Below, piece by piece: positions 37,997 to 45,220 of a stretch of 53,566 nt of DNA. The stretch's first letter is position 1. The number at the start of each line of letters is the position of its first letter. A program made the translations under genes and the position numbers. The stretch covers positions 1-53,566 of the forward strand of contig CAIXHZ010000015.1 in assembly GCA_903919375.1 (NCBI GenBank), given 5' to 3'. The DNA is from an uncultured Actinomycetes bacterium. Lineage in GTDB: Bacteria; Actinomycetota; Actinomycetes; Nanopelagicales; Nanopelagicaceae. Under the pieces are notes generated by a model. That model saw only the letters and a list, made by a program, of their open reading frames with translations. It ran no database searches and was not told the DNA's origin.

Positions 37997-39493
37997 ATGG
38001 CAAAAACACCCAAAGCCGTTCTTCCTAAACCAGGCGAGAACCCCGGTCGCATCGTCGACATTGATGTTTCGCAGGAGATGTCTGATTCCTTCCTGGAATA
38101 CGCCTACTCGGTAATTTATTCACGCGCCCTTCCCGATGCCCGTGATGGCCTCAAGCCGGTACAACGCCGCATCCTTCATCAGATGTCGGATATGGGACTT
38201 CGCCCCGACAAGGGCCATGTGAAGTGCGCCCGCGTAGTTGGCGAAGTCATGGGAAAGCTGCACCCGCACGGCGATGGTGCGATCTACGATGCGATGGTCC
38301 GTATGGCTCAAAACTTCTCGATGCGCTTGCCACTGATCGATGGCCATGGAAACTTCGGCTCACTCGATGCCGGTCCAGCTGCCATGCGTTACACCGAATC
38401 TCGCCTTGCCACCCCTGCCATGGCAATGGTCAACGAATCGGATGAAGATACCGTTGATTTCGGTGCCAACTACGATGGCCAGCTCCTTGAGCCAGTCGTT
38501 CTCCCTGCTGCATTCCCGAATCTTTTAGTCAATGGTGCCACTGGCATCGCTGTGGGCATGGCTACAAATATGCCACCACATAACCTTGGTGAAGTTATTC
38601 AAGCCACCAAGCACTTGATCGAAAACCCTAAAGCGACCCTTAAAGCGCTTATGAAATTTGTTCCAGCTCCAGATTTCCCTACTGGTGGCGAAATCGTTGC
38701 TCGCGAAGGAATTGCTGAGGCCTACGAATCTGGCCGCGGATCATTTAAAGTTCGCGCAACAGCCGTCATTGAAAAAGTTACTTCTCGCAAAATGGGAATC
38801 GTTATTACTGAGTTCCCTTACAACATCGGTCCCGAGAAGATCGTGGAAAAGATTGCCGATCTCGTTAAAGCCAAGAAGATTCTTGGTATCTCCGACATCA
38901 TCGACCTCTCTGATGGTCAGCAAGGCACCAAAGTCGTCATTGAAATTAAAAATGGCCACGAGCCAGAGGACATCTTGGAAAAGCTCTACAAGCTCACTCC
39001 TATGGAAGATCAGTTCTCTATCAACGCTGTTGCCCTTGTTAATGGCAAGCCACTGACACTTGGACTTAAAGAACTCTTGCAGGTCTTTATCGATCACCGC
39101 ATCGAAGTTGTTCGTCGCCGCTCCGAGTATCGCAAGGGTAAGGCTGAAGCTCGCCTCACGCTTGTTGATGGTTTACTGAAGGCGATTATCGATATCGATA
39201 AGGTCATCAAGATCATCCGCGCATCTGATGATGCAGCAACAGCCAAGGAAGCGCTCATCAAGAGCTTCAAACTAAACGACGAGCAGGCCACCTACATCTT
39301 AGATATGCCACTTCGCCGCCTGACCAAGATGAGCAAGCTCGAACTCGAAACCGAGCAATCAGAGCTCTCCAAGACGATTGCTGCTCTCAAGAAGCTCCTC
39401 TCGTCCGAAGAGAACATTAAGGCGCAGGTATCAAAGGAACTCGATGAGGTCGGCAAGGCATTTGCTACCCCTCGCCGTACCCGCCTGGCCTAA
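37997..39493 (+). CDS. parC: DNA topoisomerase (type IIA) subunit A, ParC-like, lacking C-terminal beta-pinwheel domain
   Basis: 498 aa; [58 protein letters not shown] ends after the coiled-coil and is followed by a terminator. Confidence 0.9.
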
Positions 39494-41859: not shown

Positions 41860-42075
41860 ATGACCGAGCAGATGATCCTCGAAACAACACCTCTCAACGC
41901 TGTTGATCGTTGCGATCGTTGCGGAGCTCAAGCCTATGTTCGAGCCACTCTCCTCTCCGGCGGCGAACTTCTCTTCTGCGCACATCACGCTAAGGAGTAT
42001 TCCGAAGGCCTCAAGAAGGTAGCTCAAGATATTTACGATGAGAGCCAGAAGCTCGTGGAGTCTGAATCTCACTAA
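41860..42075 (+). CDS. DUF7455-like small zinc-finger protein
   Basis: 71 aa; DRCDRCGAQAYVRATLLSGGELLFCAHHAKEY; SD GGGAGTG. Confidence 0.85.
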   Translation: MTEQMILETTPLNAVDRCDRCGAQAYVRATLLSGGELLFCAHHAKEYSEGLKKVAQDIYDESQKLVESESH

Positions 42076-42104
42076 CCTTTCACCGGCCTCGGCGGCCAGA
42101 TGAG

Positions 42105-42130
42105 AAAAGGAGCCCTAGGGCTCCTTTTTT
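42105..42130 (+). terminator. Intrinsic terminator
   Basis: Perfect 24-nt palindrome AAAAGGAGCCCTAGGGCTCCTTTT followed by TT. Confidence 0.85.
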
Positions 42131-42163: not shown

Positions 42164-43513
42164 ATGAGGCGGTTAGCAATCACGTTCGCAAGCGTACTGC
42201 TTCTAACGCTGCTCCCTTCTCAATTTGATGTCTCTGAGGCTGCCCCCATCTTGACTAATCCCACCCCACTCGTGGAGTACCGCGGAAGCGGAATTTCAAG
42301 TTCTGGAATGACTGACTCGACTGGACTCATGAATGCAAGTTTCTACAACTCCCCCAGCGTTTCAAATGGTGTCGTCACATTTAATGGGAGCAATCAATAT
42401 GCCATCACCAACTCAAATCTCTCGGGAAGCTTTAGCAGTCTAGGTGCAGGGCTAGAGCGAAATGTTTCAATTTTCGTCTATATCTACCCGATGGCTGATG
42501 GAACCATTGTCGATGAGTTAAGTTCCACTACTCAAAGCGTTGGTTGGCATGACACGCAAATTGAGCTTGCTGGTGGGACTTTGAAATTTCGAGTGTGGAG
42601 TTGCAGTGGGGTGAGTTCATCGATTCCCATCACCTTAAATACATGGAACTACGTGGGATTTACTTACAACTATTCCACTACAACTCTCACTGCATACGTC
42701 AATGGAACTCAAGCAGGACAGAACACAAGTTGTAGCAGGCAGACACCTTGGAATGACGGAAGTTCGAGCCTCTTTTATGGGCTTGGAACAAGTTCCACAA
42801 CAAACTTAGGGTCAGGCGCAAACGGTAATTTCAAATTGGCCCAATTCGACCTTTTTTCAACCCCTCTCACTTCGTCGCAAGTGACCTCGGCCTATAACGC
42901 AACGACGTCCAATTTCAATCCGCTTGCAACACCCAGTGCGCCGACCGTCACTGCAATTGGAGCCACAACTGCCACTGTCGCAGATACCGCCGTCGCAAAT
43001 GCGTCTTCGTATCTCATCTCCCGCTTTGCAAACGATGGAACAACTCTGCTCGAGACGAAAACCGCAACATCGGCTGCGATCGCAACCGGCACTACCTTTA
43101 CAGGGCTATCGCCCAGTTCAACCTACGTTATGAAAGTAACTGCGATAGGTGATGGCGTAAATTATGGAAATTCTGCCCTGGGTGCTGGTACCACATTTAC
43201 AACTGCAAATGGTGCTACCTCTTTGACCTTAGCGCTATCCGGCGGTGGCACGACCGCTACTTATCGTCAATCAATCCTTCTCATAGCTAGCGTGAGCAAT
43301 CCTGGTTATGTCACGTTCTATTTCAAAGGGCGCCGTATCCCCGGATGTATCAAAATACTTTCGACTGCAGGTGCAGCAACCTGTAATTGGAAGCCAAGTG
43401 TGCACGGACAAATTTATATAACTGCGCAGTTAAACCCAACTGGAGCGGGATATAACCCAAGTTCGTCGACATCACCACTACTAACAATAAACGCCCGCGC
43501 AAATACTCGTTAA
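42164..43513 (+). CDS. Secreted protein: concanavalin A/LamG-like lectin fold, Fn3-like domain, C-terminal Ig-like domain
   Basis: Signal peptide MRRLAITFASVLLLTLLPSQFDVSEA; LELAGGTLKFRV/TWNYVGFTYNYSTTTLTAYVNG-type LamG pattern (actual text IELAGGTLKFRV); IPGC...CNWKPSVHG C-terminus; TATGAT 6 nt upstream of ATG 42164. Confidence 0.75.
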   Translation: MRRLAITFASVLLLTLLPSQFDVSEAAPILTNPTPLVEYRGSGISSSGMTDSTGLMNASFYNSPSVSNGVVTFNGSNQYAITNSNLSGSFSSLGAGLERNVSIFVYIYPMADGTIVDELSSTTQSVGWHDTQIELAGGTLKFRVWSCSGVSSSIPITLNTWNYVGFTYNYSTTTLTAYVNGTQAGQNTSCSRQTPWNDGSSSLFYGLGTSSTTNLGSGANGNFKLAQFDLFSTPLTSSQVTSAYNATTSNFNPLATPSAPTVTAIGATTATVADTAVANASSYLISRFANDGTTLLETKTATSAAIATGTTFTGLSPSSTYVMKVTAIGDGVNYGNSALGAGTTFTTANGATSLTLALSGGGTTATYRQSILLIASVSNPGYVTFYFKGRRIPGCIKILSTAGAATCNWKPSVHGQIYITAQLNPTGAGYNPSSSTSPLLTINARANTR

Positions 43514-43516
43514 TTT

Positions 43517-45031
43517 TTATCGATTACCACTTCGCGTGGCGATCCCTATCAATAACTTCGTTGAACTCGATCCCGTTAAGCCACTCCCAGCCGCAGGCGT
43601 GAATATTGCTTGGACATAACTCGTGTTGTGCACGGAAGGCTTCCAACTACAGGAAGCCGTTGAGCCTGAGACAGCGATTCCTTTGCAACCAGGAATCGGG
43701 TGGCCTTGCTCGTAGAACGTGACTTTTCCAGCGGCCTGGATGGAGGCGGTCAGTACGACTGGAGTTCGAAAAGATGCAGTTGTGGCATTTCCTGGAAGAG
43801 AAAGCCCTGTTACCGTGGTGGATTTTGTTGTTCCCGAACTTGAAATGGCGCTAGCCGAAGAATCAGAAGTGGTTCGAGCCCAGACGCGAACGTCATAAGA
43901 AACGCCACCGCCGAGGCCGGAAATCGTTGCCGAAGGTGAGGCGCCGGGGCTGGTGATGCGGAATGTATTTGCCGTGGCCCAACTTCCTGTTGCCGTGGGC
44001 TTATATTGAATGACATATTCATTTGCCGTAGTTGCCGCAGGGGCAGACCATGTGAGTCCTAATGAACCCACCGTTGATATATTCACAACTAAAGATTGTG
44101 GCGTCGCAACCGCAGGCTCAGCCATCTTTCCCCATAGTTGGAATGCAAAGTTGCCTAAGCCACCGTTATATCCGTTAGAGACCGATTGATTGTAAGCCGT
44201 GTTAATGCCATTCCAAGTCGAAATATCTCCAGCTGAATTTCCGCTTAAGCCAATTCCGACTTGAGTATCACACGAGCTGGTATCGCTCTCGTTATTCCAA
44301 ATAATTCCCCATCGATGGAGTTTTCCACTGCAGGCAGAGGATCGATTAAAACCATAAATTCCATATCCCGATTGGTTGGAGAAAACAGAATTGCTGGAGT
44401 TCTGCCAGAGCGTGGAGCGAATTCCTCCAGAGGTGGGCGAAGTAGTCAGATAAATATCTGAATTTGTTTGCAATCGCGTGTACATCGACTGGGAAGAGAT
44501 ATCTTCTTTCCAAGTCCAGCCACCAAAACCATTGCTGGCGATATCACCACCGTTGGGAAGAGAACCTGCCTGAGGATTTGAAAAGACGGCAAGTACATGG
44601 GTAATCGGCAGATCGTTATAGACCGAATATTTTGCATCAGAAGTGAAATCATTGGCGATCGTGGAATTGAGCGTGCTGGTATTAGAAGTGAAATTCGATG
44701 AGCTGTAATAGAAGTTAGGACTACTTTGTATACCTTTCATCATCAGCACCCAGGAGCCATTGCTGGTTCCAGTCTGATTCATCTTGAGGTAGACCTGGGT
44801 TGCTGATCCATTGTCATAGATCCAGTAGAGACCATCAGTAGTGGTTCCATATAAGTTATAGATTTCTTGAGGAGTCATCGCAGGACAAGTAATTGAGCTC
44901 CCAATGACACACTCAGATTGTTGCGATCCGGTTGCAGACGCCGGTAGCGCCGAAAAAAAGGGAAGCGAAATGGCGAGAAGAGCAGCACACGCAATCTTGG
45001 CTAGTCGGACAGAGCCTTTGCCGTAGTGCAT
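43517..45031 (-). CDS. Secreted protein: fibrinogen-like/COLFI-like N-terminal domain, Fn3 domain, C-terminal Ig-like domain
   Basis: Signal peptide IACAALLAISLPFFSALPASA; TPQEIYNLYGTTTDGLYWIYDNGSATQVYLKM; Fn3 LGLTWSAPAATTANEYVIQYKP; IPGC...CSWKPSVHN. Confidence 0.7.
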   Translation of the reverse strand: MHYGKGSVRLAKIACAALLAISLPFFSALPASATGSQQSECVIGSSITCPAMTPQEIYNLYGTTTDGLYWIYDNGSATQVYLKMNQTGTSNGSWVLMMKGIQSSPNFYYSSSNFTSNTSTLNSTIANDFTSDAKYSVYNDLPITHVLAVFSNPQAGSLPNGGDIASNGFGGWTWKEDISSQSMYTRLQTNSDIYLTTSPTSGGIRSTLWQNSSNSVFSNQSGYGIYGFNRSSACSGKLHRWGIIWNNESDTSSCDTQVGIGLSGNSAGDISTWNGINTAYNQSVSNGYNGGLGNFAFQLWGKMAEPAVATPQSLVVNISTVGSLGLTWSAPAATTANEYVIQYKPTATGSWATANTFRITSPGASPSATISGLGGGVSYDVRVWARTTSDSSASAISSSGTTKSTTVTGLSLPGNATTASFRTPVVLTASIQAAGKVTFYEQGHPIPGCKGIAVSGSTASCSWKPSVHNTSYVQAIFTPAAGSGLTGSSSTKLLIGIATRSGNR

Positions 45032-45034
45032 GAC

Positions 45035-45220
45035 TTACTCGCTCTTATCCTTGTGCGAGCCGTCGCAGAATGGTTTCTCTTTTGATTTGCCACACCCGCA
45101 GAGTTTGAAATCGCTGCGGGTCTCCAGAATATTTCCATCTGCATCGACAAAGTTCGCCTCTCCCGTAAAGCGGATAGAGCCGCTTTTGGGATTGATGAAG
45201 ATCTGTGGACGCGTCGTCAT
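45035..45220 (-). CDS. CDGSH-type iron-sulfur protein
   Basis: 61 aa; LCGCGKSKEKPFCDGSHK. Confidence 0.9.
   Translation of the reverse strand: MTTRPQIFINPKSGSIRFTGEANFVDADGNILETRSDFKLCGCGKSKEKPFCDGSHKDKSE

Follow-up and report, generated by a model that had tools for sequence, protein, structure and literature searches.

Two convergent genes at a variable chromosomal site in a freshwater actinobacterium encode predicted exported proteins of a family with a cationic, arginine-ended C-terminal Ig-like domain

The stretch of DNA analysed here (53,566 nucleotides in full, hereafter the window) contains two convergent genes, P1 on the plus strand (42164 to 43513) and P2 on the minus strand (43517 to 45031), whose TAA stop codons (43511 to 43513 and 43517 to 43519) are separated by the three bases TTT (43514 to 43516). 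This is the tail-to-tail arrangement, with stops 3 bp apart, that an earlier, sequence-only reading of the region had described. P1 encodes a protein of 449 amino acids, an alternative start being possible at an upstream GTG (42146). All on the plus strand, it comprises a signal peptide (MRRLAITFASVLLLTLLPSQFDVSEA, 42164 to 42241), a LamG or ConA-like head (42461 to 42883, residues 100 to 240; PF13385, E 5.5e-10, 40 bits, above the Pfam gathering score of 27.6), an fn3-like domain (42932 to 43156, residues 257 to 331; PF00041, E 0.0022, below the Pfam cut-off) and a C-terminal Ig-like domain, called CTD below (43229 to 43510). The family profile of this last domain reaches the last residue of the protein, which ends in RANTR, a terminal RxxxR tail (43496 to 43510). 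P2 encodes 504 amino acids and, all on the minus strand, is made up of a signal peptide (MHYGKGSVRLAKIACAALLAISLPFFSALPASA, 44933 to 45031), a head (44117 to 44932), an fn3 domain (43856 to 44104, residues 310 to 392; PF00041, E 9e-8) and a CTD recognised by the same profile (43520 to 43804), ending in RSGNR (tail at 43520 to 43534).

The N-terminal signal peptide found in each product agrees with the export that had been proposed for both, and the LamG plus fn3-like composition given for P1 stands, with an fn3 match that is sub-threshold. For P2, described as fibrinogen-like plus fn3, the second half is well founded and the first is weak: the NCBIfam model GGGWT gives E 0.022 and 16 bits on the P2 head and E 6e-4 on the best ortholog, all below the cut-off of 30 bits. 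This head is kept in three relatives at 45 to 59% identity; a profile search of the PDB returned no relative of it, and in the AlphaFold model of full-length P2 the pLDDT is below 50 across the head. The proposed homology of the two C-termini is confirmed by BLASTP, which aligns P1 and P2 at E 3e-21 over a stretch ending in the CTD, with 44% identity within the CTD, and by their membership of a common family. As had also been pointed out, neither protein sequence contains an LPXTG motif or a C-terminal transmembrane (TM) segment; nor was a sortase gene found in the window's genome.

On its left, the pair is flanked by a gene of 71 codons (41860 to 42075, plus strand), which we take to be DUF7455-like and which lies beside parE; this flank is conserved in 26 of 28 genomes. 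A terminator-like hairpin after this gene (42103 to 42130, plus strand; a consensus match only) marks the left edge of the variable site. The right flank is a small, presumably SEC-C-like gene (45035 to 45220, minus strand) beside rpoD. In non-carriers, and likewise in several carriers, the site is a short spacer only. It holds both P1 and P2 in the window's genome and in G090, where the convergent stops are 6 bp apart, so that a short gap is not unique to the window's genome. P1 stands there alone in G084, and P2 alone in G078 and G108; G182, which belongs to another genus, has there a CTD protein distinct from both and with another type of head, and G135 an unrelated gene. Since the gene content of the site varies in this way among relatives, the P1/P2 pair is a variable insertion at a hotspot and not a conserved functional unit, and the idea that the two genes form a functional pair had to be dropped. 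Elsewhere in the window, a GyrA/ParC-family gene (37997 to 39493, plus strand) encodes 498 amino acids only, without the usual C-terminal domain; because two relatives (L140 and L154) end at the same residues, the short gene is not an assembly frameshift.

When the P2 CTD is used as query, the window's own genome (1.39 Mb in 158 contigs) yields 19 matches in about 18 proteins, of which P1 and P2, judged from their sequences, are two. A set of 90 CTD proteins with intact 3' ends was then collected from neighbourhoods in carriers of the genus plus one from genus g2 (13 genomes). The CTD, about 95 residues long, lies at the extreme C-terminus in all 90 and is present in a single copy in 89. The chain ends in RxxxR followed by 0 to 3 residues in 84 proteins, exactly in RxxxR in 71, and in KR or KKR in the remaining six; R-[ST]-[GN]-x-R is the commonest form of the tail, and the background frequency of arginine is 2.0%. 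Among 85 aligned CTDs the median pairwise identity is 31%, two cysteines and the arginine at position -5 are invariant, and the last arginine is conserved at 95%. The mean net charge is +8.9 per CTD (5 to 13), against -1.7 per 97 amino acids in the heads and -0.2 in Ig copies of this class that are not terminal. As these internal copies have neither the charge nor the tail, position, end motif and charge belong to the terminal version of the domain. A hydrophobic N-terminal segment was detected, by a crude heuristic, in 78 of the 81 complete CTD proteins.

The Pfam model Big_3_5 (PF16640) matches 26 of the 85 CTDs at E<=1 (best 1e-8), P2's own CTD not being among them, and the CTD is best classed as a diverged Big_3_5-type Ig-like domain. 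AlphaFold2, run on the 85-row alignment, predicts an Ig/fn3-like sandwich (pLDDT 84) in which the last strand would stop about six residues before the C-terminal end, leaving RxxxR as a short appendage. A sequence search of the PDB returned no significant relative of the CTD, and a fold search only generic Ig, fn3 and CARDB matches (best E 1.7e-3). Phage carriage of the CTD was also considered and rejected, a scan of viral contigs having returned no relative.

The sequence-only reading had pictured a C-terminal anchor shared between different heads and had proposed looking for this domain under other heads in relatives; the wider family fits that picture. Heads assigned in 83 CTD proteins include Gly_rich_2 (28), LamG (23), fn3 (9), List_Bact repeats (6) and PA14 (3), with subtilase, TIG and LRR found once each. 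Head types are intermingled on the CTD tree, with partial clustering: 16 changes were counted for the Gly-rich type against 22.2 in shuffled data, and 4 against 7.7 for LamG. Given this partial clustering, and a tree that is poorly resolved, recent swapping of heads is not proven.

The family is distributed unevenly. Among the 27 genomes of the genus, 11 have strong matches that cover the whole domain and extend to the C-terminal motif, 3 have only partial generic matches and 13 have none; multi-copy genomes have 3 to 18 copies, so that copy number is patchy across sister species (0 or 3 to 18). Multi-copy carriers also occur in two other genera of the family (g2 and g16). At a strict threshold, a 395-genome sample of the class returned a single match beyond the family, a partial one, and a five-row CTD alignment searched against genome contigs found 11 loci, all in actinobacterial MAGs. 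Many genera of the family also encode, once per genome, a protein of about 310 to 320 amino acids that carries an Ig-like domain of the CTD class at its N-terminal end (L053, L055 to L059), and this generic protein is the source of many single weak CTD matches.

Through the genes that neighbour CTD genes, a second locus was found, which we call the core. At seven places in six genomes, CTD genes adjoin members of a family with the motif ANIxINxGxxEFGQG (the EFGQG family), which are exported or membrane-tethered, carry a net charge of -3.6 per 97 amino acids, and have no match in Pfam (camelysin and TasA included), NCBIfam or the PDB. They often have Lcl_C or LamG heads at the C-terminal end (as in L132 1250 to 2440, L122 1338 to 2528 and L139 2239 to 3531), an arrangement that reverses the plan of the CTD proteins, the shared module here being N-terminal; LamG heads are present on both mounts. 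Gene order in the core is fam1, two to four EFGQG genes, fam3, fam2, fam4, fam6 and fam5, usually flanked by fam11-fam12 and joined in some genomes by fam7. The core is present in some 35 genomes out of the 251 sampled from the order (for example L244 2000 to 11730, L252 4535 to 12093 and L274 123 to 6170), and most of its members are unannotated. In the window's genome, one contig (C133) contains the end of fam2 followed by fam4, fam5, fam12 and fam11, the core being cut by the contig end.

Fam3 matches TIGR02228 at E 7e-13 (just under the cut-off), a SipW model at E 0.002 and human SEC11A at E 3.5e-7, and conserves the motifs S-M-P, H-R-I and K-G-D-x-N with their Ser, His and Asp; by these marks it is an ER/SipW-type (Sec11) signal peptidase. 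Fam4 is collagen-like (E 1e-13), fam2, about 525 amino acids long, has both a signal peptide and a number of hydrophobic segments, and fam1, fam2, fam5 and fam6 gave no informative family match. Fam7 resembles O-antigen ligase/polymerase (PF04932, E 4.5e-6, which missed the Pfam cut-off) and adjoins the core in seven genomes. In a 397-genome sample of the phylum, the only matches of fam2 beyond the family were two weak ones. Three genomes have a second, divergent pair of fam2 and SipW-type peptidase (G066 C5 2574 to 3336; G084 C17 22509 to 23919; G078 C53 2897 to 3828), additional to the main core in G084 and G078. Two others encode EFGQG proteins with neither CTD proteins nor core (L279 3592 to 7464 in G102; L260 3485 to 5005 in G079), either as remnants or because this subunit has a separate use there.

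CTD and core genes occur together to a large extent. EFGQG genes were found in 14 of 14 CTD carriers tested versus 2 of 20 non-carriers, and fam2 in 12 of 14 versus 0 of 20. In the 251-genome sample of the order, 25 genomes have a C-terminal CTD and 35 a strong fam2 match, taken as the core; the core is present in 22 of the 25 and in 13 of the other 226 (Fisher p 1e-19, kinship ignored). The association spans five genera (g1, g2, g4, g9 and g16), and non-carriers are found in four of them (g1, g2, g4 and g16). In six genomes (G019, G031, G054, G165, G243, G249) a CTD gene directly adjoins the core. In these CTDs beside the core, the tail is shorter, having the first arginine only, and the charge is +1 to +4, so that the form with RxxxR and a charge of +9 may have been elaborated later, along with dispersal, a direction that we infer. 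There are exceptions: G015, which is 99% complete, has three CTD proteins and two EFGQG matches with no fam2 or fam3, G142 has a CTD with neither EFGQG nor fam2, and G066 has only the divergent core. In 13 genomes the core is present and no C-terminal CTD was found, which indicates that the core functions in its absence. Part of the association could stem from common ancestry or from a surface lifestyle that the genomes share. Sortase genes were found in 3 of 14 CTD carriers and 1 of 16 non-carriers; as the window's genome and most carriers have none, sortase was ruled out as the machinery that handles the CTD.

The question arises as to what the CTD does. Export, terminal position, tail, charge, diversity of heads and association or linkage with the core can all be read from the sequences, and on this basis we consider, with a probability of about 0.58, that the CTD is a docking or sorting module that mounts interchangeable heads on a SipW-type fibre or surface apparatus. 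P1 and P2 would be members of a genome-wide exported set, each with one or more variable heads and a cationic, disulfide-capable CTD ending in R-x-x-x-R. After Sec export and removal of the signal peptide, the CTD would fold and bind an extracellular structure made by the core, so that the protein is retained on the cell surface. The core, with its SipW-type peptidase, EFGQG subunits, collagen-like protein and the membrane proteins fam2, fam5, fam6 and fam1, would build an EFGQG fibre or layer, and the CTD would dock the heads either to this structure or to its base in the membrane. Contact could be made between the CTD charge of +9 and the -3.6 per 97 amino acids of EFGQG proteins, together with the arginine tail, while LamG and other heads would point outward as interchangeable units of adhesion or recognition. 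Docking on a fibre, fibre formation, the role of the arginine tail and adhesion are inferred, the first three by analogy with SipW/TasA systems. In a stronger version, the SipW-type apparatus (fam1 to fam6 and EFGQG) would recognise the folded, Arg-ended CTD, capture as many as about 18 different exported proteins and fix them to an extracellular fibre, perhaps by a covalent bond. This would amount to a new sortase-independent sorting system of freshwater Actinobacteria; we regard it as doubtful.

Three other explanations are considered. The CTD might be a stand-alone electrostatic anchor on anionic cell-wall or capsular polymers, for which the core is not needed. The restriction of the +9 charge to terminal copies, the lack of a sortase in the window's genome, and the presence of CTD proteins without a detected core in G015 and G142 are in keeping with this. 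However, generic charge has no need of an invariant arginine at -5 or of a fixed RxxxR end at 31% identity, and would not predict that the CTD tracks core and EFGQG genes or adjoins the core, and we think such an anchor unlikely.

Less plausible again is a cleavable tag of the type 9 secretion (T9SS) kind, which core membrane proteins (fam2, fam5 or fam6) would recognise and remove, the head being joined covalently to a glycan, perhaps by the Wzy_C/O-antigen-ligase-like fam7. An Ig-like C-terminal domain with a conserved end and the position of fam7 beside the core would suit it, but a candidate transpeptidase was not found, fam7 is missing from some core loci besides scoring under the Pfam cut-off, and no protein scanned against NCBIfam matched a T9SS family. 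We give an equally low rating to the view that the CTD is only an Ig spacer which was inherited and multiplied by gene duplication, its terminal position and arginine tail being historical. It would account for the probable membership of the common Big_3_5 repeat class, with generic internal copies in relatives, and for the partial clustering of heads on the CTD tree; yet the copies are old, as their median identity indicates, and their end has stayed fixed, while the domain is terminal in every protein of the set and internal copies show neither its charge nor its tail.

To our knowledge, little is established on how proteins are retained at the surface of sortase-less bacteria of the Gram-positive type. 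If the docking reading is right, the tag (an Ig domain ending in RxxxR) and its cognate cluster would let the surface proteome be listed from sequence, would predict which species make the structure, and would allow a new docking mechanism to be tested. The window's lineage, by our reading the abundant freshwater Nanopelagicales (acI), is regarded as streamlined, free-living plankton; the distribution of the CTD points to sharp, all-or-nothing differences between closely related planktonic species in a surface adhesion programme. The literature that we searched, in which subscription journals are thinly covered, contains no description of such a system in these bacteria, and the core gene cluster is apparently undescribed.

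Among known systems, the T9SS sorting domain is Ig-like and sits at the extreme C-terminus of many proteins with unrelated heads. The CTD is likewise a terminal Ig-like domain under unrelated heads, but its hosts are Actinobacteria, which have no outer membrane, and it matched no T9SS sorting domain in Pfam or NCBIfam, or among the best 50 PDB fold matches. LPXTG and CTERM tags (PEP-, GlyGly- and MYXO-CTERM) consist of a motif, a transmembrane helix and a basic cluster, and share with the CTD a short conserved C-terminal signature, basic end residues and many substrates per genome (PMC11980579). In contrast, the CTD is a folded domain with no TM segment, and most of its carriers are without sortase: in place of the tripartite LPXTG end, the C-terminal 100 residues of 85 proteins consist of Ig domain up to the end of the chain and contain no TM segment, and six CTD proteins scanned against NCBIfam gave no CTERM match and have no TM. 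Big_3_5 is probably the sequence class of the CTD, but normally forms internal tandem repeats, whereas the CTD is single, terminal and cationic, with an RxxxR end.

Closest to the core are the SipW/TasA systems (tapA-sipW-tasA; sipW-tasA-calY-capP in Bacillus cereus), which in Gram-positives form surface fibres independently of sortase (PMC9674648, PMC13082335); in B. cereus, TasA, CalY and CapP build filaments without sortase (PMC13082335). The core also encodes an ER/SipW-type signal peptidase together with small exported proteins resembling fibre subunits. However, EFGQG subunits match no TasA or camelysin family, and the core is SipW-like by its peptidase and not by its subunits. It differs further in having additional membrane and collagen-like proteins and in coming with dispersed, C-terminally tagged proteins, of which we know no counterpart for TasA.
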